Shown here in pieces: positions 558 to 45,087 of a stretch of 64,000 nucleotides of DNA (its first letter is position 1; each line of letters starts with the position of its first letter). Origin of the DNA: Synechococcales cyanobacterium S06 (GTDB taxonomy: Bacteria; Cyanobacteriota; Cyanobacteriia; Cyanobacteriales; JAABRE01); contig JAABRE010000018.1 in assembly GCA_011391125.1 (NCBI GenBank), positions 1 through 64,000 on the forward strand. Direction: 5' to 3'. Made by a program: the position numbers and the translations under genes. The notes under the pieces were generated by a model that was given only the letters and a program-made list of their open reading frames with translations, was not told where the DNA came from and ran no database searches.

Positions 558-597
558 ACTTAATCTATCTTCTGGCTAAAACCCTGTGAGGTGCTTT

Positions 598-12500: not shown

Positions 12501-15500
12501 TATGACCGAAGATAACATCGGTATTCTCCTCAATGTCAAAGAAAAATATGATTTATTCTCCCTACCTTTGGATGTTGACTTAGGTTTAGACGCGTTAGGA
12601 ATTGGTTTAACCACCGAAGGAGATTTAAAAACCACCTTTGACTTTAATATCGCACTCGGTTTTGGCTTAAATAAAGACTTCGGTTTCTATATTGATACCA
12701 AACAAACTAAAGTGGGAGCAGCCTTCAGAATTGATTTAGAAGATTTTAAAGCCCAAGGTAATTTGGCCTTTTTACGCTTAGACATGGCCGATGATCCAAA
12801 AAACCATACTGAGTTGGCTATTACCTTTGAAGCAGGTTTAAAAGACCTTGATAACTACAAAACCGTCAAATTCTTTGATGTGGACGGTGATTATCGTTTA
12901 GATGCTAGTAGCTTTACCTATCCCATTAAAACTAATGATAGCGGTAAACCTGCCACTACTGCCACCGGCGACTTTATTACCACTAATCAGGTAGTTAACG
13001 AACCTTTTATTAACGTTAATACCCAAGGTATTGCTCCTGAGTTTACCACAGTGGCCAATGCGACCGCTCCCCAAAAACTCCTCGACTGGAATGCCAATGG
13101 TAAATTTGATGCACCTTTTAATACCAAAGGTGAAGGTGTCTATCTAACGAAGAAAGTAGCAAGTACCACCCCCGGAGGTCAACCTACCATTGAATCCTAC
13201 TATTTTGACATCAATCGTAATGGTAGTTTAGACATCACCAGTAAGGAAAAACTCTTTTCTGTCACCCCCGGCACGACAAAATGGTTTGACGCAACAAATA
13301 GGCTTAAACCCTTGACAATTGAGCAAAAAAATGTTAATGGCGTTGTTACCTATTACTTTGATCAAAATGGTAATAATGTCTTAGATACCGGTGAAACCCT
13401 TACCAGTCAAGAAAAAGCCAGAATTGACAAGAACAACAATAACACCTTGGATGCGGATGAAGCAGGACTTGGCGAAGGTACATTTGTTCAAGGAACGGGA
13501 ATCGCTTTCCTTGATACTAATAATAATGGTCAATTAGACGCGACGGAATCCTTTGTCTATTCAAAGTTTGCTGAATTTGATCTCGAAACTGAAAAGAAAA
13601 TTATCACCTATAAGGTCTTAACTTCAGGTACTACCACTTTCCTTGACCAAAATAATAATGGTACTTTTGAAGATGCTAACGATCTTGATCTGTTAAAACC
13701 CCAACCTGTAACGGTGCTCGAATCTGCTATTCTTGGTCTTCCTGGAGCAGGTAATTATACCGCAGCCCAAATCTTAAACTTGACCGTCGCTAATGGTAAG
13801 GTGATGGATACTGAGGTGAGTTTTGTCAATAGTAAGGGCGATGTTGCTAAAAAATTAGACATCAAAGAAGAACCTTTAGTCAGAATTAAAGCGGGTGTCA
13901 GGTTTATTGACAAGGATAATAATGGTAAGTTGACTTTAGACAATTTTGATCCTCTCAAAAGTAACATTTACACCTATAAAGTCTTAACTTCTGGTACTAC
14001 TACCTACCTTGACCAAAATAATAATGGAGTTTATGACTCGAATAATGACCTTAATTTGTTCGCTAATTTCACCGTAACCCAACAGCAATCGGAATTTGTT
14101 GATTTACCTGCCGGTAGTTATCCAGCCCATCAAATCTTGAAATTAACTGTCACCAACGGTAAAATTCAGGAAACGGAAATTAGTTTTGTCAATACTGTCA
14201 ATGCTAAAACTGATACTGCTAAAAAATTAGATGTGGGCGATGAACCCTTAGTCAGAACCACGGAAGGACGAACCTTTATTGACAACGATAATAACAAAGC
14301 TTTCACTTTAGATGATCAGACTGTCGTTACGGAATTGTTCACTTTACCGAATAATGAATTTGATACCAGCACTTTAACGGGTACAGGTACTATTGTTGAA
14401 CTGATTGATGATGGCGATCGTTTAACCATTCAAGAACTGAAAAACTGGAAGAGTGACCCCAATTCTACCTTGAATGACCTGTTTACCTACGAATTGGCCG
14501 GTAATGCTAATTTAGGTCTGAACACGAAAACCAGTATTGATGGAGATCCTGCTTTCCCCAGTGTGGCCTTTGATTTGGCCATCGGCCTACCTCTGTTTAA
14601 TTATGGTAATCAAACTGAATCGGGTAGTACGGGTTTAGATGTTAATTTTAATAATATTACCCTCGATTTTGGCACTTTCTTAACTGATTTTGCCGCTCCC
14701 ATTATGAAAACGGTTGACGATATTATCTCGCCTGTGAAACCAGTTATCGACATCCTCAACGCGGATACGAAACTGTTTTCTTACTTAGGGATGGAAAATC
14801 AGTTTAATCGTGATGGTAGACCAGGGGTGTCAATTTTAGATTTAGGAATCGTGTTGGCCGAAGCAATTCCTGCGGATACAACCGATGCTAACTTAAAACG
14901 GATTAAGGATAGTGTTCCCAAAGCGGTCAAATTTGTTGAGACTGTTACCAAGATTATCGAATTAAATGAGAATTTAATCGAATTAGCCGAAAGTGGTAGT
15001 TCCATTATTCTCCCCTTGGGTAGTTATAACCTTAATGACTTTAAAGGCGCTAGTGATGACCCCGCCGACACGGCGGCCAAAGTTGATGCTGGTACTCAAG
15101 GTACACAAACCCCTGCTCCAGGTGTGACTCCTGGTACAACACCGGCCCAACAAGCACAAAATTCGACCACGGCCAATCCTCAACAAAAAAGCACTTTAAG
15201 TAAGTTACAAAGTCTCGATGGTATCCAAATCCCCATTTTGGACAATCCCCTGACCATCATTCGTCTCTTATTGGGTGAAGAAGATGTGGATTTAATTAAA
15301 TATGATATTCCCGATTTAAACTATTACTTCGGTAAGGAACAAGAATTCCTCCTCTGGACTCCTCCCACTGTGGAAGGTATTTTGGGAATGTACTTTGAGG
15401 CGAAAACTGATCTTTCTGTAGGTTATGATACCCACGGGTTGGAATCTTGGCGCGATGATGATTTTGATATCTCTTCCATCTATAAAATCCTTGACGGTTT

Positions 15501-18500
15501 CTATGTGGATGATTTGAATCCCGATGGTGTGGACAAGGATGAGTTAAGCCTCAATGCCGGTATTTATGCAGGTTTATCTGCTAGTATTGTGGTCGCTAAA
15601 GCTATCCTGAAAGGTGGGGTTGACGGTTATCTCGGTTTTGACCTCGTGGATGAAGGGGAATTGCAAGGGACCAGTGACGGTAAGGTCCGTGGTTCGGAAA
15701 TTATCTCCCGGATTAGCAATCCTTTAAGTTTATTTGATCTTAAGGGTTCTTTGGATGCCTATTTGAAAGGTGAAATTCGCGTCGGCGTTGATCTCGGTTT
15801 CTTTGAAATCATGAAAACCATTTGGGAGCAGGAATTCCGTATTAATTTGGCTAAGTTTAATATTGGTGCTCATGGTGTTACCCTGAGTTTTGCTGGTAAA
15901 GCTGTAGATGGTTTTATTTCTGGTGGTACGGTGTTCCTTGATGGTAACTTAAATGGTGAATTAGACGAAGATGAACCTTCCACCGTTACTAATCGCAATG
16001 GTCAATTTACCCTCAATATTTCTGAATCTCTCTTTACCCAATTAGATGTTAACGAAAATGGTACGATTGACATCTCTGAAGGCCGTTTAGCGATGATTGG
16101 TGGTATTGATTCGGGTTCAGATCTGCCTTTTGAAGGTATTTTAACCGCAGCTGTGGGTTCGGAAGTTGTCACTCCCTTTACCAGTTTGGTGGAAAGAGTT
16201 GCACGTCTCAATCCCGAAGGTTTCACCATTGCCCAAGCAGAAGAATTGGTCAGTAATAATTTGGAAGAATTAGGTGGCTCTTTGATTTTTTATCCTAGGC
16301 TGGAAGTTATCGCCACGGGAGAAGAAATCTTCTATGAGGAATTAGAAGGTGGCATAATCGTAGAATACTCAGTACCTTATCAATTAGATGTCACTGATCA
16401 GGTTCTCCTCAGTGATAATTTCGCTGAACTTAAAGCTCAAAACGGTTGGCTTTCTCTTGAGTTGAATTGGCAAGCTGAAGCAGTTAGTATCCCTTTCAGC
16501 TACGATATTAATCCGAAGACTGGAGAATATGAAATTGTTAGCTATGCACCTCAGATTGATGATAAATCCTATCAATATTTATTAGGAGCACAAATCCAAC
16601 TTGTTAGTGAACAATTAGCAACCTTGACTGGTAAACCGATTAATGAACTTCTTGATCAATTGGCCGCTAAGGTTAATTCTGGTACTTTTAGCTTGGCTGA
16701 TTCTTATTATGACTTTTTACCCTCTGACTTTACCCAAGTTCAAAAATACGCCGCTAATTTAGCTATCACCAATGCTAGTCTTGCTTTAAGCCAAGAAGCT
16801 TATGGTCAAATTGATTACAATGGTGATGGTATTGGCGATGGTGGTTATGGATTCAGTGATGAAAATTATGACATTTATGACAAAATATTCCGCATTAATG
16901 GCAAAATGCAGGTTGTCGGCGAAAACTTACAAGACTTACTCGCTAAAATCCGCGATAATGAGCTTGATATTTCCTTTGCACAGTCTAATCAAGACTTCAG
17001 CACTTATGGTTTGTCGGCTCAATTGAATAATCTTACTGGTATTGCTGTTAATGTCTTTGCACCTCAAACTGCTGATTTTACTCGCACTCTTAATGAAGAT
17101 ACCCCCTATACTTTCACCGTTGCTGACTTCCCCTTTACAAAAGGCGATCCCGATGATACCTTAAAGTCAGTCATTGTCGAATGGACGGTGGATCAAGGTG
17201 ATCTCAAAGTGGGTGATCAATTTGTTACCAGTGGTATGGAAATTATGGTGGCTGATATTGCAGCTGGTAAACTCACTTTTACCCCTGATCTTAACGATTT
17301 TGCCCCTAATTATACTCACTTTAATTTCCGTGTTACTGACGGTAAGTTCTTTACTGACCAAATCCACACCATGACTTTTGATGTCACTAATGTCAATGAT
17401 GCACCTTTGGTTCAAGAGGAGATCGCCCCTCAACGAGGTATCAGTAACACACCCTTTAACTTTAGCTTTGCTAGTGATACCTTTACTGATACAGATGACA
17501 CGTCTTTAACCTATACTGTGACTCAAGTCGATGGTAGTCCTTTACCTAACTGGTTAGGTTTTGATCCAGTAACAGGTCAGTTTAGTGGCACACCAACCTT
17601 GACAGACGCAACTAATTGGCAAATTAAAGTAACTGCTACCGACAGTGGTAATCTTTCTAGTTCCACTAACTTCCACCTTAATATTTTTAACCAGATCAAC
17701 GGAACCGTCACGGGAGAAATTTTAGAAGGTACTGACAACAATGATTTAATTAATGGTAAAGGTGGCCCTGATTATCTCAATGGTGGGTTAGGTAACGATA
17801 TTCTTAATGGTGGATTAGGACATGATACTTTAATTGGAGGATTAGGTAATGATAACCTTAATGGTGGTCTGGGTGCTGACCTTTTAGACGGTGGTGAAGG
17901 TATTGACCTGGTTAACTATGGTAACTCCCCAATGGCGATCGCCCTTGACCTGAACACCGGTATTAATAGCGAAGGTGACACCCTGATTAATCTGGAAAAT
18001 GTCACTGGTTCAAACTTTGATGACACCTTAACCGGTAATGACCAAAATAACCGTTTAGTTGGTAATGACGGTGATGATATTCTGAACGGGTTAGAAGGTA
18101 ATGACCAATTACAAGGCAGTTTAGGAAACGATACCCTCAATGGTGGGTTAGGAAATGATACCCTCAATGGTGGTCCGGGTGCTGACCTTTTAGACGGTGG
18201 TGAAGGTATTGACCTGGTTAACTATGGTAACTCCCCAATGGCGATCGCCATTGACCTGGACACCGGTATTAATACCGAAGGTGACACCCTGATTAGTGTT
18301 GAACAGGCGATCGGTTCAGAATTTGATGACACCTTAACCGGTAATGACCAAAATAACCGTTTAGTTGGTAATGACGGTAACGATATTCTCAATGGATTCG
18401 GTGGAAACGATACCCTCCGAGGAGGTTTAGGAGCTGATACTTTTGTCTTACAATTAGACTCAGGTCGTACTTTAATCCGTGACTTTGAGATGGATTCTGA

Positions 18501-18663
18501 CCAATTACAATTAGAATTACCAGAAGATATTACTTTCAAGGATTTAACCCTGAAAAATAACGCCACCGGTAACACCGTGATTAAGTTAGACACCGACATC
18601 CTCGCAGTCTTAAGCAATGTTGATTCCACCTTAATCACGGAAGCTAATTTGCTGATTTTCTAA
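598..18663 (+). CDS. Giant DUF4347 / LamG / FG-GAP / RTX secreted protein (about 6,021 aa)
   Basis: One open frame without interruption. ATG 598 is preferred to the upstream GTG 586 because GAGG at 588-591 is well placed for it and because MSQSSPNILFIDTQ is a typical DUF4347 start. Approximate modules: DUF4347, 5-170; beta-rich/Calx-like, 175-490; LamG, 505-710; NHL repeats, 825-1100; LamG, 1300-1510; FG-GAP/VCBS repeats with DxDxDGD loops, 1880-2140; LamG, 2190-2380; PPC-like repeats at about 2630, 2825, 2945, 3285 and 3410; EF-hand-like Ca loops (DxNNNG), 4090-4580; unassigned regions, 3885-4090 and 4630-5100; cadherin-like, 5495-5600; He_PIG-like, 5600-5700; RTX nonapeptides, 5708-5950; C-terminal tail. 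It lacks an N-terminal signal peptide and has C-terminal RTX repeats, which fits type I secretion and a Ca-dependent surface or adhesin role (inference). No T1SS genes are nearby. It is comparable in scale to other giant cyanobacterial surface proteins. Confidence 0.9.
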   Translation: MSQSSPNILFIDTQIADYQQLLNAALPGTEVILINSNQDGVDAITAALLNRSNINSIQVISHGSEGQLQLGNTWLNSSTLQDYSAKIETWGNALTEQGDILFYGCNLAGDFIGLNLIQQISELTGADVAASADLTGSSFLGGDWVLEANTGAIDSSIALSEEGQTNYTETLAIPSLTVYDRFLVEGFNTVNSDGFWNRITLSLSNYDQKSSFYISYNLLPHGLESQGSVSSNDYSDPNSGRFQITPSKVYSKNGQLLVDIPIIINNDSLWDQKEYLDFRLNPTSEYTVVGADQYNTFLQIVGDNHPLISVDSNNYQKTEGESLRVKDITRIEFDVNDSSFTPTLSGFDLYLDITGTALRGSFANTQKGSDYKLFYTPYKRHPNDYGIFIEVDSRKALPDPVANTSIYKINVPAGINGFIISAEDINDEVFEPTETIKITLVEDDVVLGLARYSSGDKYLLRGTFTGTGPLDEEAKKYFESLKTKIVNLLENEPIVSLGKVVNPTEGFGYGSTIEGLDDAIALTGSQSVSIPANSSLNLANTGKFTLEAWVFPNFTDNNQHDIISYQGGTKTGYPSISIINQTSLQIGFGSGTKWNTKTLEKAINPKGWNHVASTFDGKDYKIYVNAVEIYSTSEFAGQKPAPTQQLEIGKNFAGAIDEVRIWDTDRSAAQLQSLMISELTGTEAGLVGYWDFNKNLTNKANQDSNNPHNGTISGTVEYLNKPAPQIGYVEVTLDKPFQGDQGLWVKYDITGGTATQNSDYFNSRYRKVSTDANSERNGIIIPKGETTGRIYFSALNDAVVEGDETVNIKLIPHNFDQENIPVSPNTYVLDYNSGNVKVFDSQGNFRSTFGSFGTGDGQFQQPNELVQDNQGNVYVLDRGRHDVQIFDSSGKFLRKFGSYGTGNGQFITPSDIALDNQANIYVLDQSEFKRDIQVFDKNGTFLRTLNTTPPGGQPRAAESIAINKNNDVYIAYMGYINIFDNNGTYKGTFGSYGSQDGQFSRITNISIDPSGNIYAVDMERYNVQIFDSSGKFLRKFGSYGTGNGQFSRPINVGIDGNGNSYVTDNSRNDVQVFDRNGNYLSKFGSSGTGKFSNPVGISFDNSWPNSNYGISTTNNSAVITIKDNQAYTQGVILFDATNQPLSSKNPLAIKNGTADFKLKLTSQPTSNVTVNLSSSQGSLGNITVTFTSSNWDTLQTVKLNGVSADGNISASASGYFTGTQTFGFTPNPPLKVTEGSTTDAVPVTPEVIISSLGDISEDGGQSGNFVVNLSAPAPAGGLTINYSPSGTATQGTDYQNIANSALKFDGVNDHVALSNGKVSATSLNLPTNAITLEAWVNIAQFKDWTSAISFLQDNGSTEAGFALGTFSSGQFYLAVAGGSNGLTYLKSPSSYSTNQWYHIAGVYNGSQMELFINGESVATSTAETGNIYYLNSWYRLGMFTDDNEDDGLNGQIREVRVWNTAKTQSEIIANKDSSLNGNETGLVDYYRANPTTDNFVLDSSGNNRNGVLTNGASYVMTGQLTIAEGDTTGQISLLPIIDKNTEPNESVTITLATGTGYKLTTTKNQATLNILNDDTAGIEVVNAQQTIDSNGNLVMVDGEPVMGYSDNLVAVVTSEPYPNVNNVLQLWDNNNNLLGSVTLTQEQINTGKISLNITGTLPNPSQLRAILKENSTGVQGLTLDNGKISLNGNTVEITLPSIGSQGYVGIRLQTQPTADVTVTFNNIDNTETSLDKTTVTFTPENWQDYQVVTVTGLDDLDLDGDISYNITAIVSATTDPNYSGKTFAIPVKNLDDDQKVDTAALTTPSTNSTLPTVTIGNPVTVAESNTTASINVNLSKAATQATEVMFSIPDGTAVINQDYQVSQTYLINQFEADGKARFASPFGNVDVGDNAKPTFADLDNDGDLDAIIGHQTGIKYFKNLGSPSIPLFEEQTGSQNPFGNITIQGAAPTFADLNGDLTLDLAIGTDTGNIIYYINNGDRLNPRFTLPSGLIPVQNDPFSGIDVGDQAIPVLVDYDKDGDNDLIVGSAANGISYYQNTGSQKTPTFTKSTSNPFANISGNAPILVDYDQDADMDMFVGQSNGVVSYWENNNGTFAQNASKNPFAKITNTASLATNSALALVDLNGDGFKDAFVGVNNGKIDYYEQFNLVTFADGEKTKTINLQIKDDQIAEGNETLEISLYPNAGYNLGSPQNYLNLDGTDDHVKIPNAKLAGDYTIETWVFIDSKTQNFSSILELGNDTGSERIFFGLKNNQSQFYLETRTNSQTSSYTLPDNLPQQQWVHLAVTVDSSGKGNFYVNGEFKSSASPFKLPTDILKTVNYLGKGRSGYQFAGKIKNLTVWDKSLTQTEIQTTKDQGLTGSETGLVAYYKGDLDANNALLDSSTNQLNGTLQNGVLVKNDPITTTVTITDNDVAGVTIAKLTGTNTSETGNSVSYSVKLNSQPTAPVTVYLGSQDDTEALVTVKSDLTSLAGVASLVFTPDNWNQTQTFYVKGVDDQIEDDDMTYQIITTVSSEDQTYHKLAVNDLSLTNIDNDQAGFIIKGAGKAIEGRDNVYSIKLSSQPVGDIRLIMTPTNDQIRLNNEFVGEPLTITFNPQNWNFEQTVRATALDDQVVEFLHFSEINFEVQTGQGLDFESKADNNTAENALDLGTIKGGYNGHNLAITPSGDIDWFKFTLPDTGNNLDFARIDFDHASGNLKLEVYSGKNLTTPLLVADSSSTASNLEQISLNGQPFGDYYLKVAGDANSYDLVVADSDDEFVVDSEYIREKTQAISNVQNTITVPVNGSLLENQLTIKGVTSGAFNNELILNIENKIQAKTYTQSVGEASDQDLPANTSTTGRLLVGDYVFGKAANNSDKDWYGIYLEAGKTYTLDLENYYYQGYRTNLALYNSSGTLVEASQKNEQTDQQPRIIYTPTISGNYYAETNLILGNQYRLSVDNIVSNSASKSEGTTDLPANTTTTGFITVGDKVTGNGAYPGDRDWYKVNLTMGKTYVIDMSGQSMGDGTLKYADSVALYSDSNFNRYVAQSSGLEVGNGMRSQVRFTSTSTGSYYIETYTSTAGTYKLGVSEVIPYTDIETVNTFFTPDLMIGSKVQLTPDLTATITQANTLTLASSTNLSRLYTGQITVNLDNLDAFNQLKPLPVVIQDNDLPTATLIAGPTASEVFSEPSYFTVQLNAPLPKNSSGLNVNYRLVGGSATLSEDKNSNGVLDTGEDTNNNGKLELGDYFIQKEGVVRIAPGDIQNNLIIAPIDDKLVEDLKLSIKSVTQGANSNELILNVSSSITKILNQSTDELQGTDYPANNTTTGRLLVGDFVMGAHAHSSDQDGYAVYLEANKTYTFDLEKYNNGNPFLYLYDSNNTLLGSNDNTGSNLNSRLTYTPTVSGNYYPRTSSTSSDSYRLSVKNLVSNSSSTSEGTTDLANNNTTTGVISVGSQVTGTITDFSDQDWYKLDLKAYTTYVIDMMGSSLGDGTLTTPNIYLYNSKGEKIAEPLGSELNGGRVQMHFTPTTSGTYYAGALTKKESGTYKLGLSEVIPYREPITSLTPELFAGSKLRFDKNLTATISKGTTLTYNSGLYQGNITVTVDDSSRKGEIQANSPARIAEETVIVEVLPGDGYLLPANPKATLRIQDDDVPGVRIVQVGDNTVVKEGETASFEVSLLSEPTAPVNIRLTPGFEIDFVNPVNPTTVKVSKDIYTFDETNGGNLDVNLVSLVTGEKEKTVSFGVNLKVIPSSNVIVEFSDGNNDVTKDNPVFKTLLFTATEPNSVTGEEPGNWNQVQQVILGYLDPDTSGNMKVKAIIKDATTGQQIGNPLTFPIIRTTTQVDKQTTEITIQPEDWYKLQTVTFTGIDEQLAEPGLYHQSNITYQVDSRDVEYKSLFVPVQRVDVVDRPLNPETTSQTVRLGLSNLQQSLDNLEIPMVGALDGKMPNLIGDISDKLVVAISAEPELTGNRLKTVIESALSSLGLDFVNVSVDMTEDNIGILLNVKEKYDLFSLPLDVDLGLDALGIGLTTEGDLKTTFDFNIALGFGLNKDFGFYIDTKQTKVGAAFRIDLEDFKAQGNLAFLRLDMADDPKNHTELAITFEAGLKDLDNYKTVKFFDVDGDYRLDASSFTYPIKTNDSGKPATTATGDFITTNQVVNEPFINVNTQGIAPEFTTVANATAPQKLLDWNANGKFDAPFNTKGEGVYLTKKVASTTPGGQPTIESYYFDINRNGSLDITSKEKLFSVTPGTTKWFDATNRLKPLTIEQKNVNGVVTYYFDQNGNNVLDTGETLTSQEKARIDKNNNNTLDADEAGLGEGTFVQGTGIAFLDTNNNGQLDATESFVYSKFAEFDLETEKKIITYKVLTSGTTTFLDQNNNGTFEDANDLDLLKPQPVTVLESAILGLPGAGNYTAAQILNLTVANGKVMDTEVSFVNSKGDVAKKLDIKEEPLVRIKAGVRFIDKDNNGKLTLDNFDPLKSNIYTYKVLTSGTTTYLDQNNNGVYDSNNDLNLFANFTVTQQQSEFVDLPAGSYPAHQILKLTVTNGKIQETEISFVNTVNAKTDTAKKLDVGDEPLVRTTEGRTFIDNDNNKAFTLDDQTVVTELFTLPNNEFDTSTLTGTGTIVELIDDGDRLTIQELKNWKSDPNSTLNDLFTYELAGNANLGLNTKTSIDGDPAFPSVAFDLAIGLPLFNYGNQTESGSTGLDVNFNNITLDFGTFLTDFAAPIMKTVDDIISPVKPVIDILNADTKLFSYLGMENQFNRDGRPGVSILDLGIVLAEAIPADTTDANLKRIKDSVPKAVKFVETVTKIIELNENLIELAESGSSIILPLGSYNLNDFKGASDDPADTAAKVDAGTQGTQTPAPGVTPGTTPAQQAQNSTTANPQQKSTLSKLQSLDGIQIPILDNPLTIIRLLLGEEDVDLIKYDIPDLNYYFGKEQEFLLWTPPTVEGILGMYFEAKTDLSVGYDTHGLESWRDDDFDISSIYKILDGFYVDDLNPDGVDKDELSLNAGIYAGLSASIVVAKAILKGGVDGYLGFDLVDEGELQGTSDGKVRGSEIISRISNPLSLFDLKGSLDAYLKGEIRVGVDLGFFEIMKTIWEQEFRINLAKFNIGAHGVTLSFAGKAVDGFISGGTVFLDGNLNGELDEDEPSTVTNRNGQFTLNISESLFTQLDVNENGTIDISEGRLAMIGGIDSGSDLPFEGILTAAVGSEVVTPFTSLVERVARLNPEGFTIAQAEELVSNNLEELGGSLIFYPRLEVIATGEEIFYEELEGGIIVEYSVPYQLDVTDQVLLSDNFAELKAQNGWLSLELNWQAEAVSIPFSYDINPKTGEYEIVSYAPQIDDKSYQYLLGAQIQLVSEQLATLTGKPINELLDQLAAKVNSGTFSLADSYYDFLPSDFTQVQKYAANLAITNASLALSQEAYGQIDYNGDGIGDGGYGFSDENYDIYDKIFRINGKMQVVGENLQDLLAKIRDNELDISFAQSNQDFSTYGLSAQLNNLTGIAVNVFAPQTADFTRTLNEDTPYTFTVADFPFTKGDPDDTLKSVIVEWTVDQGDLKVGDQFVTSGMEIMVADIAAGKLTFTPDLNDFAPNYTHFNFRVTDGKFFTDQIHTMTFDVTNVNDAPLVQEEIAPQRGISNTPFNFSFASDTFTDTDDTSLTYTVTQVDGSPLPNWLGFDPVTGQFSGTPTLTDATNWQIKVTATDSGNLSSSTNFHLNIFNQINGTVTGEILEGTDNNDLINGKGGPDYLNGGLGNDILNGGLGHDTLIGGLGNDNLNGGLGADLLDGGEGIDLVNYGNSPMAIALDLNTGINSEGDTLINLENVTGSNFDDTLTGNDQNNRLVGNDGDDILNGLEGNDQLQGSLGNDTLNGGLGNDTLNGGPGADLLDGGEGIDLVNYGNSPMAIAIDLDTGINTEGDTLISVEQAIGSEFDDTLTGNDQNNRLVGNDGNDILNGFGGNDTLRGGLGADTFVLQLDSGRTLIRDFEMDSDQLQLELPEDITFKDLTLKNNATGNTVIKLDTDILAVLSNVDSTLITEANLLIF
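3241..3740 (+). repeat. NHL-repeat coding duplications
   Basis: Within the giant gene, two segments of about 80 bp starting near 3241 and 3661 are almost identical in nucleotides. Both encode VQIFDSSGKFLRKFGSYG. They are 420 bp apart and belong to a run of about six NHL-like units (roughly 3070-3890). Near identity at DNA level implies recent duplication or gene conversion inside the propeller region. Confidence 0.7.
13612..14320 (+). repeat. Paralogous Ca-loop module pair in giant gene
   Basis: Two consecutive modules of about 120 residues share the order VLTSGTTT / LDQNNNG / LTV-NGK / EISFVN / AKKLD / EPLVR / FID-DNN. They start near 13612 and 13975. The D-x-N-N-N-G loops look like calcium-binding EF-hand or dockerin-type loops. 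The modules flank conserved spacer sequence I cannot assign to a family, and probably arose by tandem duplication. Confidence 0.55.
17871..18482 (+). repeat. 306-bp tandem duplication in RTX region
   Basis: The segment starting at 17871 (GGGTGCTGACC) and its copy starting at 18177 match exactly for about 73 nt. They stay highly similar through the next stretch, including the DDTLTGNDQNNRLVGNDG block at about 18010 and 18316. The period is a constant 306 bp (102 codons), so the frame is kept. This is a recent in-frame duplication of a block of RTX repeats plus linker. Confidence 0.8.
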
Positions 18664-18683: not shown

Positions 18684-18739
18684 TGTTGCGCTTTAGCGCT
18701 GGTAGGGGCACTCCGGCCGGAGTGCCCCTACGCGCAACA
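18684..18739. repeat. Branched palindromic repeat with 30-nt perfect palindrome
   Basis: A perfect 30-nt palindrome (18702-18731) reads GTAGGGGCACTCC, then central GGCC, then the reverse complement. Outer arms TGTTGCGC (18684-18691) and GCGCAACA (18732-18739) enclose it. It lies just after the giant gene stop and between convergent genes, so it may serve as a bidirectional terminator. The same GTTGCGCTTTAGCGC arm reappears at 47243, which marks it as a dispersed REP-like element. Confidence 0.6.
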
Positions 18740-19752: not shown

Positions 19753-21999
19753 TTATACGGATTTTAACTGTTTATAAATAACATCTAATCGTTGCTCCAT
19801 ATCAGGGGCTAAAGAAGTAAAATAAATATAAACTATTTGATTATTATTTTGGCTCGACACAACTTTAGCGTAAATATCGCCACCATAAGTTACTTGATCT
19901 TCATTCAAAAGATTTAATTTAATATTACTTAAATCAGAGGGGCGATCGTCTCTTCTTCGTTGATTTGATTCCATTTCTGCCCCTTGCTCCGATAATTTTA
20001 TCAGGCTACCATCAAAAACATTCTCATCAATATGTTTGCCTTCTAAGAGGGTATATTTAACAGGAATTGGCGGAAAAATTGGCAATAATTGTGCTTCTTT
20101 TTTCGTTAAAAATAGGTTGTGTTTACCATAAATTCCGCCGATTTCATAAATAGTAATTGGCTCTTTTACACCCTTGGGCAAAACCTGTTTTTGGCCATCT
20201 ATTTTCACCATGGATTTAACTTTGGTCACCGTAGATTCAGAAACCATAATTTGCCCACCAATGGTATAAGACTCGATACGATAGGCTAAATTAACGTCTC
20301 GGCCAATCACACTGTATTCAGTATGGGCTTCCGAGCCAATATTTCCTAATACCACATCCCCCGTATTTACACCGATACCCATTTGTAACTCAGGAAAGCC
20401 TAATTTCGTAACTTCCTGGTTGATAGCCTCCATCGCCAATTGCATCGCCACTGCGCAAGCTACCGCCCTTTCCGTGTCATTTTCCCTCGCTGTGGGCGCA
20501 CCAAACAAGACTAAAATACCATCCCCCATATACTTATCAATCGTGCCTTGATATTTGGTAATGACGGCGGAAATATGCTTTAGATAAAGGTTCAGCACCC
20601 TTACCACCTCTTCAGGCTGTAAACGTTCAGAAAGGGCGGTAAAACCCCGTAAATCCGAGGTTAGGATGGTAATTTTGCGCCTTTCTCCCCCTAATTTTAG
20701 CCCTTGTGGACTTTCCAGCAATGTGGCTACCACATCATCACTGAGATAGCGGCCGAAAGTGCGGCGAATATCCCCGGCAGTTAAAGCAACATAAGCAGTA
20801 ATTGCCAACCAAGAACCGGCCAAACCTAGCAACGGTGGGACAACAGGAAGCCACCAACCGATTAAAAAAGTGGGATAGGTCGTTAAAAATAGACCTCCTA
20901 AACAAAAAATCGGTCCGGCCATCCGTTTCAGGGAAAACTGACGCATTCCTCCTAAATAGCGCCATTTCCAGACTAAACCAGCGCTTAAACTTGACCAAAA
21001 TACGATCCAAGCCCATTCCACTGGGTCTGACCAAGTTTTCAGCAAAACTCGCCCGTCCATGGCCGCACTTATTATTTGACTAATTAAGTTTGCTTGAATT
21101 TCTACCCCAGCCGTCCGTTCCAGAGCGGCTAAATTTTGATTACTGTAGGGTGTGTAGAAAAAATCGTTTAAACTGATGGCTGTTGCCCCAATTAACACGA
21201 GGCGATCGCGAAACAAGTCCGCCGGGACACGATTGTCCAGAACTTCAGTCATGGTGACAGTGCGAAAAGTTTTGGCCGAACCGCGATAATTGAGTAAAAG
21301 CTGATAACCGCCATCATCAGCATTGATATAAGCACCATCATTGCTGGCAAAAGGTTGAAAAAATCCTTTACCCCAGTAAAAATGAAGGGGATCAGCTTCG
21401 GTGGGTTGAGGTACTAAACCCTCTTTTTCCAAATAAAGAGCAGATAAATAGTAGTTAAAAGAGGGAAACGGTTGCTCATTTTTGTTCAAAAAGAATAAAC
21501 CCCGACGGACTCGGCCATCATGATCGACTTGTACATTATTAAAGCCAACTTGGCCTAATTTATCTAATACCGGTGGGGGAGCAACGGCTTTTTTGCTGTC
21601 GGCTTCGTCAATTAATTCGATGCCCACTAAATTCGGAGTCGTCTCGAAGACTTCCACTAAGTCTTGGTGTCCGGGTTCAACGGAAAAATCCCGATAAAAG
21701 TCAAGGCCGATCGCCCTGGGTTGTTGTGCTTTAATTTTATTCAGTAATTCTGCCAAAATTGCGTCATTAATGGGCCATTGTTGAAACTTTTTGATATCAT
21801 CTTCATCCAGACCAACAATGATAATTCTTTCATCAGTTGTTTCTGAAGGCCGGAGGCGAAAATATTGGTCGAAAGCCGCCCATTCCAATGATTGCAACAA
21901 ACCGAGCGATCGCAATCCAATAATCAGCAGACTAATTGTCGGTGCAGTAATCAAAGCACCTCGCCAATCCCAGAGTTGAGTTTTAAGTTTTTTTAACAT
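19753..21999 (-). CDS. CHASE2-domain class III adenylate cyclase
   Basis: Predicted membrane receptor that makes cAMP. From ATG 21999 (MLKKLKTQLW) it has an N-terminal transmembrane helix, then a CHASE2 sensor domain (about 40-330) on the outer face. Three or so transmembrane segments follow (about 335-435), then a class III nucleotide cyclase domain (about 440-620). Metal-binding aspartates are visible in TSDLRGF and DKYMGDGI, and the transition-state Asn/Arg in DVNLAYRIES. The last 120 residues are unassigned. The frame stays open to 22068, but residues upstream of 21999 would be encoded by a dispersed repeat (22022-22123), so I reject the longer form. No Shine-Dalgarno precedes 21999. It sits between a DUF928 gene and a TPS exoprotein gene, all on the minus strand. 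Confidence 0.85.
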   Translation of the reverse strand: MLKKLKTQLWDWRGALITAPTISLLIIGLRSLGLLQSLEWAAFDQYFRLRPSETTDERIIIVGLDEDDIKKFQQWPINDAILAELLNKIKAQQPRAIGLDFYRDFSVEPGHQDLVEVFETTPNLVGIELIDEADSKKAVAPPPVLDKLGQVGFNNVQVDHDGRVRRGLFFLNKNEQPFPSFNYYLSALYLEKEGLVPQPTEADPLHFYWGKGFFQPFASNDGAYINADDGGYQLLLNYRGSAKTFRTVTMTEVLDNRVPADLFRDRLVLIGATAISLNDFFYTPYSNQNLAALERTAGVEIQANLISQIISAAMDGRVLLKTWSDPVEWAWIVFWSSLSAGLVWKWRYLGGMRQFSLKRMAGPIFCLGGLFLTTYPTFLIGWWLPVVPPLLGLAGSWLAITAYVALTAGDIRRTFGRYLSDDVVATLLESPQGLKLGGERRKITILTSDLRGFTALSERLQPEEVVRVLNLYLKHISAVITKYQGTIDKYMGDGILVLFGAPTARENDTERAVACAVAMQLAMEAINQEVTKLGFPELQMGIGVNTGDVVLGNIGSEAHTEYSVIGRDVNLAYRIESYTIGGQIMVSESTVTKVKSMVKIDGQKQVLPKGVKEPITIYEIGGIYGKHNLFLTKKEAQLLPIFPPIPVKYTLLEGKHIDENVFDGSLIKLSEQGAEMESNQRRRDDRPSDLSNIKLNLLNEDQVTYGGDIYAKVVSSQNNNQIVYIYFTSLAPDMEQRLDVIYKQLKSV

Positions 22000-22021
22000 A
22001 AGTGAAGGAAGTAAGAAATAA

Positions 22022-22123
22022 TGTAGCATTTTCATTTGACATTTTGCCTCTCTTTCCCCCTCTCCCATTGGGATGAGGGGGTAGGGGGTGAGGGTATATC
22101 ACATTTAATCGGAAAGTGCTATA
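22022..22123. repeat. MITE-B copy 1
   Basis: About 100 bp with terminal inverted repeats close to TATAGCACTTTC (left end TGTAGCATTTTC, right end AAAGTGCTATA). The core is CCCCTC / GGGATGAGGGGGTAGGGGG. In reverse complement it matches the copies at 37005, 47071 and 52131. It overlaps the 5' extension of the adenylate cyclase frame, which helps to place the real start at 21999. Confidence 0.6.
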
Positions 22124-22142: not shown

Positions 22143-22184
22143 GTTATCAGTAGGGGTGAACGGCCGTTCACCCCTACTGATAAC
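22143..22184. repeat. 42-nt perfect palindrome
   Basis: A perfect self-complementary sequence: arm GTTATCAGTAGGGGTGAACG, centre GC, then the exact reverse complement. It lies 18 bp past the stop of the TPS exoprotein gene (minus strand), and could act as its terminator or as a cruciform-forming REP element. It shares the GTAGGGG...GGCC...CCCCTAC design with the palindrome at 18702-18731 although the arm sequences differ. Confidence 0.65.
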
Positions 22185-35274: not shown

Positions 35275-36645
35275 ATGATGACTAAGACAATTAAAGTTAT
35301 TGGAGGAGGTTTGGCCGGAACTGAGGCGGCTTGGCAAATTGCTCAAGCAGGTTTACCGGTGACTCTCTACGAAATGCGTCCAAAACGTATTAGTCCAGCC
35401 CATCATAGTGAAGAATTAGCTGAATTGGTCTGTAGTAATTCTTTTGGCGCAATGTCCTTCGATCGCGCTGCCGGTTTGCTCCATGAAGAATTACGGCGAC
35501 TTGATTCAATTATTATTAAAACTGCCGATCAACATTCTGTGCCGGCTGGAGGAGCTTTGGCCGTTGATCGCGGGGTTTTTAGCCACCAATTAACCCAAAC
35601 TTTGGCAAATCATCCCTTAATCGAGCTAAAACGGGAAGAAATTACGGAAATTCCCGCCGAAGGTATCGTTGTCTTGGCTACCGGTCCCCTTACGGGTCCT
35701 AGTTTAGCGGAAGATTTACAGCGCTTTACCGGGATGGAATATATGAGCTTTTTTGATGCGGCTAGTCCCATTATTGTCGGTGACTCGATCAATCATGAGC
35801 TGGCTTTTCTCGCCTCCCGTTACGATAAGGGCGAGGCGGCTTACCTCAATTGTCCCCTGAATAAGGAACAATATTTGCATTTTTGGCAGGAGCTTGGCCA
35901 AGCCCAACAAGCTGAAGTTAAGGATTTTGAGCGGGAAAATGCCAAATTTTTTGAGGCTTGCTTGCCCATTGAAGAATTGGCGCAACGTGGCGAGGATACC
36001 ATGCGTTATGGCCCGCTCAAACCGGTGGGTTTGTTTGACTCCCGTTTGGGGGATTTTCGCGCTCCTGAAAATAAATCAAAACGCCCCTACGCAGTGGTGC
36101 AATTGCGTCAGGAAGACAAACAAGGCCAGTTATGGAATATGGTCGGTTTTCAGACTAATTTGCGTTGGGGTGAACAAAAACGGGTCTTTCGCCTGATTCC
36201 GGGACTGGAAAATGCCGAATTTGTGCGCATGGGAGTGATGCACCGCAATACTTTCATCAATTCTCCCCAATTGTTAGCACCGACTTTGCAGTTTAAAAAA
36301 CGTCCTCATTTGTTAGCAGCCGGCCAGTTAGTTGGTACAGAAGGCTACACAGCAGCGGCGGCCGGAGGTTGGTTAGCAGGTACAAATGCCGCTCGGTTAG
36401 CTCTAGGTTTAGCTCCCGTAACCCTTCCCGAAACTACAATGATGGGGGCTTTATCTGAGTTTATTAGTTCCGCAGAGCCAAAGCATTTTCAGCCCATGCC
36501 TCCGAATTTCGGCATTTTCCCCCCTTTAGCTAGTCCCATTCGCCAGAAACGAGAACGCTATGGAGCTTATGCTGACAGGAGTCTAACTGATTTAAACTCT
36601 TGGAAAGAGACTATTTCTATCCCTAAACTTTCGGCACAGATTTAA
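35275..36645 (+). CDS. trmFO: tRNA (uracil-5-)-methyltransferase TrmFO, folate/FAD-dependent
   Basis: 456 residues. TrmFO methylates U54 of tRNA using methylenetetrahydrofolate and reduced FAD. An N-terminal dinucleotide-binding motif [10 protein letters not shown] is followed by YEMRP and LVCSNSFGA, both characteristic of this family. The C-terminal block [21 protein letters not shown] contacts FAD in GidA/TrmFO enzymes. Length is normal for the family. ATGATG offers starts at 35275 and 35278. It converges with a small zinc-ribbon gene 3 bp away. Confidence 0.95.
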
Positions 36646-36648
36646 CTT

Positions 36649-36846
36649 TTAGGAACTTGTTTCTAAAGTTAAGTCATCACAGCCATAAAGGCGATTTAAT
36701 TTCGCGATATTTTCCTTCTTTTTCTGGCTTTTAATTACCGATTCTAAGTCGGGCATTTCTTGACGACAATCGGGACAAAACCAATAAACTTTGTTTTTGC
36801 TAATGCAGCGTAATAGCGATTGTGAGCAGCAGGGACATTCATTCAT
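36649..36846 (-). CDS. Small zinc-ribbon protein
   Basis: A 65-residue protein with two CxxC knuckles (CPCC near residue 4, and CPDC in FCPDCRQEMP) in a typical zinc-ribbon arrangement. A short basic/acidic tail follows. The motif CPCC...YWFC..CRQEMP is shared, as I recall, by small cyanobacterial proteins of unknown function. The intergenic region downstream in its direction is only 3 bp from the trmFO stop. No function is assigned. Confidence 0.65.
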   Translation of the reverse strand: MNECPCCSQSLLRCISKNKVYWFCPDCRQEMPDLESVIKSQKKKENIAKLNRLYGCDDLTLETSS

Positions 36847-37004
36847 CGTTTTTGAGCCTGATTTAAGAGAATTTTTTTATTTACCAAAAAAGGGGACATA
36901 TTTTCTGTTTGATTTCTATCTAAGTGATATTTTTTAAAAATCTATTGGTATTAATTTTTAGGTTAAGCAATAGATGGTCATAATTTATGAGTAAAAGCAA
37001 ACAA

Positions 37005-37109
37005 TATAGCATTTTCAGATTAAATGAGATACAACCCCTCAGCCCCCTACCCCCCTCATCCCAAAGGGAGAGGGGGAAAAGAGTCCTCATAAATTTGGCA
37101 AGTGCTATA
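37005..37109. repeat. MITE-B copy 2
   Basis: 105 bp bounded by TATAGCATTTTC on the left and GCAAGTGCTATA on the right, so the ends are inverted repeats. The inner GATTAAATGAGATA and the C-rich core (CCCCTACCCCCCTCATCCC, then AAAGGGAGAGGGGG) are shared with the copies at 22022 (inverted), 47071 and 52131. No coding capacity. Confidence 0.65.
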
Positions 37110-37135: not shown

Positions 37136-37231
37136 ATGAAAACGGGATTTCCATGTCCAAATCAAGCACTACAACTAATTATTTTATTACTCATACTGGT
37201 TTTATTTCTAACTGCCAACTGCTGGTTTTAA
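37136..37231 (+). CDS. Possible 31-aa hydrophobic peptide
   Basis: A short frame, ATG 37136 to TAA 37231, encodes a peptide with a polar start (MKTGFPCPNQ) and a single strongly hydrophobic helix (LIILLLILVLFL) ending in CWF. It resembles a small single-pass membrane peptide in composition only. There is no ribosome site and it lies right after a MITE, so it may be chance. It matches no small photosystem subunit I know. Confidence 0.2.
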   Translation: MKTGFPCPNQALQLIILLLILVLFLTANCWF

Positions 37232-37489
37232 GATTATTAAAAATTAGCTTTAGATAAGGATTTTTTTGCCGGTTAAACTTAGATTAATTTTGTTTTTGAT
37301 TATTTTTAGCCTCTGATAAAATATCTTTTTATTAGATCATTATTTTCTCTCAAAACTAGAACTAAAAAAGTGATCTAGATCACTTTTTTACAATTATTTA
37401 TACTTTCTCATTTTTTAAATATAACTCAAGTTACCATCCACAAAAATTAAGCAACTAATCTCCTTTTATTTCCCTGCTGTGGTGAAGTA
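37232..37489. other. AT-rich spacer, no gene seen
   Basis: This stretch, apart from the CRP-like palindrome at 37363-37390, holds no coding frame I can support. It is part of a 1,040-bp gene-poor gap between the zinc-ribbon gene and the TPR-glycosyltransferase gene that has accumulated two MITEs and a methyltransferase fragment. Confidence 0.4.
37363..37390. promoter_or_regulatory. 28-nt palindrome matching the CRP/SYCRP1 core
   Basis: The palindrome has arms TAAAAAAGTGATCT and AGATCACTTTTTTA. Its centre, GTGATCTAGATCAC, equals the core of the consensus CRP site (TGTGA-N6-TCACA) except that the outermost T/A pair is A/T. Cyanobacterial SYCRP1 is known to bind a similar sequence. It could also form a hairpin followed by a T-run, i.e. 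a terminator. It lies about 500 bp upstream of the glycan cluster, and an adenylate cyclase is encoded at 19753-21999. Confidence 0.55.
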
Positions 37490-37497
37490 AAATTTGT

Positions 37498-37631
37498 GGC
37501 GTTGCATGACTCTGAGATGAAATTGTAGGGGCAATCCCTTGTGGTTGCCCCCGAAACGCTGATAGGGTAGGGACAAGCCCTACCCCTACATTGAAAATAA
37601 ATATCAAATCATCTTACATAGGTGCAACGCC
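37498..37631. mobile_element. MITE-A copy 1 (134 bp, 8-bp target duplication)
   Basis: Terminal inverted repeats GGCGTTGCA and TGCAACGCC bound a 134-bp non-coding element. It is flanked by an 8-bp direct repeat, AAATTTGT (37490-37497 and 37632-37639), a clear target-site duplication. The copy at 57383-57516 has the same length and differs by one base (A at 37616, G there). Inner hairpins use GTAGGGGCAA and CCCTACCCCTAC. Non-autonomous; the transposase that moves it is not in the window. Confidence 0.9.
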
Positions 37632-37741
37632 AAATTTGTTAGTGCTTAAAATGGCTTTCAATGTGCACCAGGGAAGCCGTTAACCCGACAAAAGAGGAGG
37701 CTTAAAATAATTTTGGGGCAAAAATTCATGTCCTCAAAAAT

Positions 37742-42386: not shown

Positions 42387-43232
42387 ATGTCAAATGATTT
42401 AAGAAAACCCGATTTTTTATGTATTGGGTCACAAAAAGCTGGTACAACATGGTTAGATAAAAACTTAAGACATCATCCTCAAATCTGGATGCCCGTTATT
42501 AAGGAAGTTCATTATTTTGATGGCCTTTTTATGGATAAGAACAATCTTTTTCATAAAAAAAGACTTCAAATGTTATCGAATCAATTAAAAAAGAAAATAG
42601 ATGGAGCTAACATAAGCTATGCTCACTTGAGAAAAGTAGCGGACTTAGCTTTAGTAGATGTAATTGATGATAATTGGTATTTATCTTTATTTAAGGATGC
42701 TCCTATCAATTCTATTGTTGGAGAAATTACACCTGCTTATTCTGGTTTACCAGATGAGGGAGTTGCTTATCTGGCTAGTTTATTGCCACAAGTAAAAATC
42801 ATACATATTATTCGTAATTCGGTAAAGAGAGTTTGGTCTCACATCCTTATGAAGAGCAGGGAAACTATAAATCAAGGGCAATCGATTGATTTACAAACCT
42901 GGCTAAACCTTATTGATAGAAAAGATGTTATTAATCGGTCTGAGCAAAAAAGTGCCATTGAAAAATATGAAAAATATTTTCCCTCGGATCAAATTCTCTA
43001 TCTATTTTATGATGACATTTGTAAAAGTCCTCTTACTCTTCTCAACAAAGTATGTGATTTCTTAGGTCTTGACTACAAGGAGCAATATTTTCAAAAAACA
43101 ATAAATGGCCGTTTCAATGTTAATCCGAAAATAGAAATGCCGGTAGAAATAAGAGAAATTTTAACTGAAAGATATCAAGTTCAAGATAATTGGATTAAAG
43201 AAAAATTTAATTTGAGTGATCTTGAATTATAA
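42387..43232 (+). CDS. Sulfotransferase domain protein
   Basis: 281 residues. The PAPS-binding loop GSQKAGTTWL (residues about 14-23) follows the first strand. IRNSVKRVWSHIL carries the Arg/Ser pair that binds the 3'-phosphate of PAPS. The enzyme would transfer sulfate to a carbohydrate or similar acceptor. It starts 42 bp after the double glycosyltransferase gene and precedes a second sulfotransferase. Length is typical of prokaryotic Sulfotransfer_1 proteins. Confidence 0.85.
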   Translation: MSNDLRKPDFLCIGSQKAGTTWLDKNLRHHPQIWMPVIKEVHYFDGLFMDKNNLFHKKRLQMLSNQLKKKIDGANISYAHLRKVADLALVDVIDDNWYLSLFKDAPINSIVGEITPAYSGLPDEGVAYLASLLPQVKIIHIIRNSVKRVWSHILMKSRETINQGQSIDLQTWLNLIDRKDVINRSEQKSAIEKYEKYFPSDQILYLFYDDICKSPLTLLNKVCDFLGLDYKEQYFQKTINGRFNVNPKIEMPVEIREILTERYQVQDNWIKEKFNLSDLEL

Positions 43233-43292: not shown

Positions 43293-44096
43293 ATGAAAAT
43301 AGGTAAAAACAACAAACCATTAACAGCCATAGTATGCGGTTTTGAACATAGTGGTACTACTTTAGTATCAGAAATATTGAGACAACATCCTAGATTAGAT
43401 AGTGGTTTTGAGGGAGGTTTTTTGTTAAACAAGGAGCCACTAGAATTTTTAAATTTTGAACCTTTTTATAGCAATTTAAAAGGTGGTTGGCAAGTTACAG
43501 ATGAAGATTTAAAATATATTTGTAATTCAGAAACTTGGCGGGAAGTTTATCAAAAATTACGGGAAAAGTCACCGATAATTAAAAATAAAACAACTTGGTT
43601 GTTTGATAAAACACCTCGTTATATGAGTAAATTAACCCATGTTTTACAACAAGTTCCCAATGTTCCCTGTATTGTTATTTATAAAGACTTTCGCTCTTTA
43701 ATGTGGTCATCTTTTAAGAGAAATGGTCAGGGAAAAGGACTAACTTTAGAGCAATGGTATGAGCAGATTTTTCCTATTACCACTGATGTCACTTTATCTT
43801 ATGCTAAAAGTTGGAAAAAGGCGATGGAAAATGGTTTAGGAGACCGAATTTTATTGGTTAGATATGAGGAATTATGTATTAATCAAGCAAAAATTTCTCA
43901 ACAAATCTTTGAATTTCTGGGCTTAGAATTTGAGGAATCTTTTTTATCATTCGATAAACCCAGATATGGACACGTTTATGGTAAAGAAATATCCACAGAT
44001 TTTTTAACAGAATATAAACAACATTTACCTGAGTATATTTGTCAAGAAATAGTTGAAAAAACCTCAGAATTTAAGGATTGGTTGTGGAATGACTAA
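43293..44096 (+). CDS. Sulfotransferase family protein
   Basis: 267 residues with a PAPS-loop-like motif, CGFEHSGTTLVSEIL (about 14-28), and a later YKDFRSLMWSSFKRNGQG segment in the 3'-phosphate-binding position. It differs strongly from the neighbouring sulfotransferase, so the two probably act on different positions or sugars. Its stop overlaps the start of the GT61 gene by 8 nt, which suggests translational coupling. Confidence 0.8.
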   Translation: MKIGKNNKPLTAIVCGFEHSGTTLVSEILRQHPRLDSGFEGGFLLNKEPLEFLNFEPFYSNLKGGWQVTDEDLKYICNSETWREVYQKLREKSPIIKNKTTWLFDKTPRYMSKLTHVLQQVPNVPCIVIYKDFRSLMWSSFKRNGQGKGLTLEQWYEQIFPITTDVTLSYAKSWKKAMENGLGDRILLVRYEELCINQAKISQQIFEFLGLEFEESFLSFDKPRYGHVYGKEISTDFLTEYKQHLPEYICQEIVEKTSEFKDWLWND

Positions 44097-45087
44097 TAAC
44101 AATCAAGAATCAACTTTAGAATTTCAAGTAGTAGAAAATGCTACAATACTTCCTTGTGAATATAAAAATGGTAAATCGTATTCAGGGATTTTTGATGCAC
44201 AAGATAGATTAGTTCCTGATTCTTTATTAGTCCGTAAAGATTTATTTGGTCACGATAAACAAGTCATCTTGGCAAAGGAAAATTATGCTCTTACCAAGAT
44301 GATTCCTCAAAGTAATCTGAATGATACCTATATATTTGCTGGTTATTTGACGGGACATTATGGGCATTTTCTCATCGAAAATTTAGCAAGATTCTGGTAT
44401 ATTAAACAATATCCACAGTTACCCATCATTTGGATTCCTTTCACCGGAATGATCAATCAAAACTTTAAGTCATGGCAAAAAGAGATTTTTTCTTTATTAA
44501 AGATTAACAATCCACAAATCATTATTGAAAAACCTACTTCTGTCAAACAACTGATTATCCCGCAACCAGGTTGTGGTATTCACGATTATTTTTATCTCCA
44601 ACAAGCTCAAGCTTTAATCGCCTTGAAAGCTGAAAATCCTCAAAAGGGTAGAAAAATATGGTTATCTCGTTCTCAACTTGATCCTAAACGTTCGTTATCA
44701 TCGGTAGATAATGAAAAACAATTAGAGCAGATTCTGGAGCTTCAGGGCTGGTTTATCTTTCATCCCCAAGAACATAGTATTAAACAGCAATTAGAGATGT
44801 TAGTTAGCTCTGAACATATTGCCGGGTTTCAAGGTTCAGCTTTTCATACACTTATTTTTTTGGATCAATTTAAAGCTAAGATTAACATCTTTAGAAGACG
44901 TTATTTACCTAACCAACAAATAGTCAATGATACTTACACTAACATAGCTAAAACCAAACAACTTAAACAAACTGAACATTTCGTTTCACAAACTAAAATC
45001 AGAGAAAGAACTCAAAATTATGGTGCTTCAGTTTATCTGATTCACTCCTATCGACAAATTATTGATCTATTAAATAATGAGGATTAA
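44089..45087 (+). CDS. Glycosyltransferase family 61 (DUF563) protein
   Basis: 332 residues from ATG 44089. An earlier ATG at 44053 in the same frame would overlap the sulfotransferase by 44 nt; the 8-nt overlap of 44089 is the usual coupled arrangement. Family signatures are GHYGHFLIENLARFWYI near residue 90, IWLSRSQLDPKRS (about 190), and a C-terminal block with AGFQGSAFHTLIFL. GT61 enzymes include xylosyl and GlcNAc transferases; the acceptor here is unknown. It is part of the sulfated-glycan gene run. Confidence 0.8.
   Translation: MTNNNQESTLEFQVVENATILPCEYKNGKSYSGIFDAQDRLVPDSLLVRKDLFGHDKQVILAKENYALTKMIPQSNLNDTYIFAGYLTGHYGHFLIENLARFWYIKQYPQLPIIWIPFTGMINQNFKSWQKEIFSLLKINNPQIIIEKPTSVKQLIIPQPGCGIHDYFYLQQAQALIALKAENPQKGRKIWLSRSQLDPKRSLSSVDNEKQLEQILELQGWFIFHPQEHSIKQQLEMLVSSEHIAGFQGSAFHTLIFLDQFKAKINIFRRRYLPNQQIVNDTYTNIAKTKQLKQTEHFVSQTKIRERTQNYGASVYLIHSYRQIIDLLNNED

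Follow-up and report, generated by a model that had tools for sequence, protein, structure and literature searches.

The window, that is, the whole stretch of 64,000 nucleotides from Synechococcales cyanobacterium S06 analysed here, contains a perfect palindrome in a non-coding intergenic region of 1040 nt. The genes on its two sides are divergent, with start codons ~517 nt to the left and 497 nt to the right of the palindrome. The features to which we refer are the following.

19753..22068, minus strand: protein with CHASE2 and class III adenylate cyclase domains, a possible source of cAMP
35275-36645, plus strand: trmFO
36649..36846, minus strand: zinc-ribbon-like open reading frame of 65 aa, the divergent left neighbour, with a tblastn homologue in a relative
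37003..37109, no strand: interspersed repeat left of the palindrome, genome copies 97-99% identical
37363..37390, no strand: perfect palindrome of 28 nt, the proposed operator with A6/T6 flanks
37366..37387, no strand: CRP-type site AAAAGTGATCTAGATCACTTTT, 22 bp, identical to the ideal E. coli site at 20/22 positions
37370..37383, no strand: core GTGATCTAGATCAC, 14 bp, a single copy in the genome
37489..37634, no strand: MITE-like repeat with inverted ends TGGCGTTGCA/TGCAACGCCA, interposed between palindrome and glycan cluster, with a copy in L064 at 98% identity
37887..42344, plus strand: TPR/glycosyltransferase protein of 1485 aa, the right neighbour and first gene of the glycan cluster
42387..43232, plus strand: sulfotransferase (Pfam PF13469)
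43293..44096, plus strand: sulfotransferase (Pfam PF13469)
44053..45087, plus strand: GT61 glycosyltransferase (Pfam PF04577); the true start may be internal

The sequence-only reading of this DNA had placed the palindrome upstream of sulfated-glycan genes, and the matches to PF13469 and PF04577 confirm that a glycosyltransferase/sulfotransferase cluster lies to its right. The first protein of the cluster has a paralogue in the same genome (L154 2178-7862, minus strand, 1894 aa), with 71% identity over residues 19-447. Upstream of this paralogue, the MITE-like repeat is the sole common element and no CRP-like site has been found. In relatives, the search for orthologues of the TPR-glycosyltransferase gave similarity mostly at the level of the TPR. 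The near-identical copies (up to 97-99%) elsewhere in the genome suggest that both repeats, 37003-37109 and 37489-37634, have been recently mobile.

On the left side, the zinc-ribbon-like open reading frame has no NCBIfam match, and its homologue in a relative (L041, found by tblastn) sits beside trmFO in the same arrangement. An unconfirmed open reading frame of 31 codons with a hydrophobic stretch, MKTGFPCPNQALQLIILLLILVLFLTANCWF, is present at 37136-37231 on the plus strand and ends 132 nt before the palindrome; no convincing homologue has been found among the loci compared. An Rfam search gave no match. Elsewhere in the window, 586-18663 on the plus strand is an open reading frame of 6025 aa.

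The palindrome and the CRP-family regulators

Positions 37363-37390 read TAAAAAAGTGATCTAGATCACTTTTTTA, which is identical to its own reverse complement with zero mismatches and zero spacer, just as the sequence-only reading had described it. The palindrome ranks third in length among the perfect palindromes of the window, while the longest palindrome in 20 Markov-simulated windows is 22 nt. The longer ones, at 22143-22184 (42 nt) and 18702-18731 (30 nt), follow a GTAGGGG...CCCCTAC pattern seen repeatedly in the intergenic DNA of the genome. Because the GTAGGGG-type motif recurs among the palindromes of the genome, these two look repetitive, and palindromes of this type probably form a repeat family.

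The core GTGATCTAGATCAC is formed by inverted GTGA half-sites spaced by 6 and matches the CRP pattern at 8/8 core bases. Compared with the E. coli CRP consensus AAATGTGATCTAGATCACATTT, which belongs to another organism and another regulon, 20 of the 22 central bp are identical. The sole mismatches are symmetric: A replaces the outer conserved T, leaving the palindrome with A...T in place of T...A. The description of the site as a perfect CRP-consensus core is therefore exact over 14 bp but does not extend to the outer pair of TGTGA-N6-TCACA. The palindrome shares the A...T pair with this genome's own murF site, the murF site of a relative (G398) and the sycrp1 site published as AGTGAAAAAACTCACT, so it is tolerated and not disqualifying. 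From base composition, the 14-mer would be expected 0.019 times in the 4.81-Mb genome, where it occurs once, and sites with at least 20/22 matches to the ideal would be expected 0.003 times per genome, both expectations being post hoc.

A scoring matrix has been built from the published sites of Synechocystis sp. PCC 6803 (PMC2633013) and the murF sites of relatives. The palindrome scores first of 443,680 positions with this matrix, well ahead of the second, with the caveat that the G398 murF site used in the matrix shares 16 bp with the palindrome. When the matrix is made from the published PCC 6803 sites alone, the palindrome is still first, with 17.5 vs 14.6 bits. These statistics, like those on terminators given below, cover 444 kb, or ~9% of the genome.

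In PCC 6803, sites of SYCRP1 (sll1371) have been published for slr1667 (TGTGATCTGGGTCACA), slr0442 (TGTGATCCAGATCACA) and sycrp1 (PMC2633013). The candidate site shares with them the GTGA-N6-TCAC core, a non-coding position upstream of genes and the presence of a cAMP-CRP and a cyclase, and the A...T outer pair is common to it and the sycrp1 site. On the other hand, it differs in its perfect 28-bp symmetry with A6/T6, in its distance to the start codon (497 nt vs 143-371 nt for the published sites; PMC2633013) and in having no -10 box ~22 nt towards the cluster. The palindrome probably adds one more site to the known class of CRP operators.

Eight HTH_Crp_2 matches have been identified in the genome. 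One of these proteins (L020, 251 aa, G000:C66:51832-52584) has a GE...RST stretch resembling a phosphate-binding cassette and the recognition helix RETVTR, and it matches CAP and other CRP-family structures. By its sequence, this protein is a SYCRP1-type CRP with a recognition helix predicted to fit GTGA, and most genomes of the order encode a close orthologue, with 62-75% identity for the best ones. A second protein (L019) is NtcA-like; it carries an RVTVTR helix, as do two others (L021 and L022), and the remaining HTH_Crp_2 proteins diverge more. The CHASE2 adenylate cyclase reported earlier in the window is borne out by the class III catalytic domain, whose nearest adenylate cyclases are 6fht and 2w01.

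With eight such proteins in the genome, the palindrome might instead be the operator of another CRP/FNR-family regulator or of an unrelated palindrome-binding one, for example FNR-like or NtcA-like. The pattern GTGAT-N4-ATCAC falls between the CRP and FNR patterns, which counts for this alternative. However, of the eight, L020 alone carries RETVTR, the helix that should recognise GTGA, and the NtcA pattern GTA-N8-TAC is not found in the palindrome. A regulator other than the CRP is considered quite improbable.

Hairpin folding and possible intrinsic termination

The sequence-only reading had set a terminator hairpin beside the CRP site as a competing explanation. The palindrome would then be an intrinsic, possibly bidirectional, terminator. 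Its RNA would fold into a 12-bp hairpin whose 3' arm contains a U-run, and the transcript ended there would be a small RNA, that of the 31-codon open reading frame or an antisense transcript. The hairpin does fold, with -10.5 kcal/mol on either strand (z ~-3.5), and A-stem-T hairpins serve as apparent terminators in this genome. One example is AAAAATCCGATTTAAGAAATCGGATTTTT (L072), and the palindrome shares with such terminators the A-run, the inverted repeat, the T-run and a similar range of hairpin energy.

The likeness does not extend to the position and the stem. In the 444-kb sample, the long A-stem-T hairpins lie 6-30 nt past stop codons and have a loop and at least 3 G-C pairs, whereas the palindrome lies in a divergent region and has only 2 G-C pairs, no spacer and its U-run inside the stem. 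The five-pair core contributes -2.4 kcal/mol, and most of the -10.5 kcal/mol comes from A-U pairs. No gene clearly ends towards the palindrome, as the flanking genes diverge; the nearest clear stop on the same strand is that of trmFO, 717 nt away and behind the zinc-ribbon open reading frame, and the palindrome does not follow a clear gene at short distance. A terminator scan did not call the palindrome. Moreover, the copies of the core in relatives have no long T-run and are mostly upstream of genes, and if the palindrome were a terminator, the fit of its core to CRP (half-site at least 10/11) would be a coincidence of ~2e-5 per palindrome.

In Synechococcus elongatus, canonical terminators end only a minority of transcription units, and cyanobacteria have no Rho (PMC13289151), so even a weak hairpin keeps some terminator potential. 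The gene arrangement and the G-C-poor stem weaken termination, which is judged unlikely, and the CRP operator is the better supported of the two.

Distribution of the core in the order and in the genome

A count across 196 genomes of the order gave 18 copies of the 14-mer, against ~4.5 expected from composition and 1 for the reversed control, which has CTAG twice and may be depleted for other reasons. Of the 16 loci examined in relatives, none is inside an open reading frame of at least 100 aa, despite a coding share of 76% in the same DNA (p ~1e-10), and ~13/16 copies are upstream of a gene start by 500 nt or less. The targets include murF (3 genomes), PilX/HpsA-like genes (2) and an exopolysaccharide sugar-transferase-like gene (L090); these names are readings of the protein sequences, with HpsA assigned by NCBIfam. 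Because nearly all genomes of the order have a CRP, the correlation between the 14-mer and the presence of CRP is uninformative. One site-bearing genome (G383) has no close CRP orthologue, and its copy is oddly placed (L095). Among 390 genomes of the class, one other carries the extended 18-mer, where it lies between the ends of genes and in surroundings unrelated to those here.

The genome of the palindrome has other CRP-like sites. The murF site, AGTGATTTATATCACT (L084 1501-1514), has the same outer bases as the palindrome and a TATATT 19 nt downstream. Two more sites belong to a PilX-like gene (L006 1502-1517) and to an HpsA-like gene divergent from folK (L078 1501-1514). The G398 murF site resembles the palindrome in its distance (~470 nt) as well as in its outer pair. 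In a survey of murF upstream regions, full 8/8 half-site matches were found in 5/30 loci, compared with ~0.4 expected from shuffles, which makes murF a patchy and not a universal target. Near-consensus sites in this genome show no clear enrichment (82 vs 71 controls, and 7 vs 4), indicating that the CRP regulon is small at best.

Next to trmFO, the palindrome has not been found in the relatives compared, all of which are outside the family. This lack of conservation, the interspersed repeats on both sides and the absence of canonical promoter spacing towards the cluster would all suit a relic or chance palindrome that lies between two mobile repeats and has no present function, or a CRP site that the MITE-like insertion has severed from its gene. 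Against a relic, long decay would hardly have left 28 nt without a mismatch, and relatives show enrichment of the core at regulatory positions. We regard such a relic as rather unlikely.

Promoter spacing and possible target genes

In activating promoters, the published spacing places the -10 box ~22 nt downstream of the CRP site (PMC2633013). Towards the cluster, no -10-like hexamer is found ~22 nt from the palindrome, the nearest being TATACT at 14 nt and TACCAT at 47 nt. On the minus strand, AATAAT is 24 nt from the palindrome. Repression by SYCRP1 is also possible (review PMC13249358), and repressor sites need no such spacing, so the promoter spacing is not decisive.

The palindrome is probably a true operator for the SYCRP1-type cAMP receptor protein. 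With cAMP bound, a CRP dimer would place a RETVTR recognition helix in each of the two GTGA half-sites, and the A6/T6 flanks may favour bending of the DNA. Once bound, CRP would activate or repress a promoter within the divergent intergenic region. The likeliest target would be the TPR-glycosyltransferase/sulfotransferase cluster on the right, with the zinc-ribbon gene on the left as the alternative.

The proposal of a cAMP-regulated promoter for the glycan genes can be divided into two parts. The CRP site itself is supported by the SYCRP1-type regulator, by the enrichment and non-coding placement of the 14-mer in the order and by the murF, PilX-like and HpsA-like sites of the same genome. The control step has fared less well, given the lack of a -10 box at canonical spacing towards the cluster, the 497 nt with a MITE-like insert, the small divergent gene and the paralogue without a site. 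Control of the glycan cluster by the CRP operator is therefore put forward tentatively, with a little less than an even chance. A dual use, in which the element would act on DNA as a CRP operator and in RNA as a hairpin terminator or attenuator, with CRP-cAMP setting both initiation and read-through into the sulfated-glycan cluster, seems very improbable.

If CRP binds the palindrome, cAMP signalling in this cyanobacterial lineage would reach a cluster for a sulfated or glycosylated envelope polymer, besides the murF and pilus-type genes with their similar sites. For a clade with few mapped CRP targets, the scan of the order also yields a short list of strong, testable candidate CRP sites, those at murF and at PilX/HpsA-like genes.
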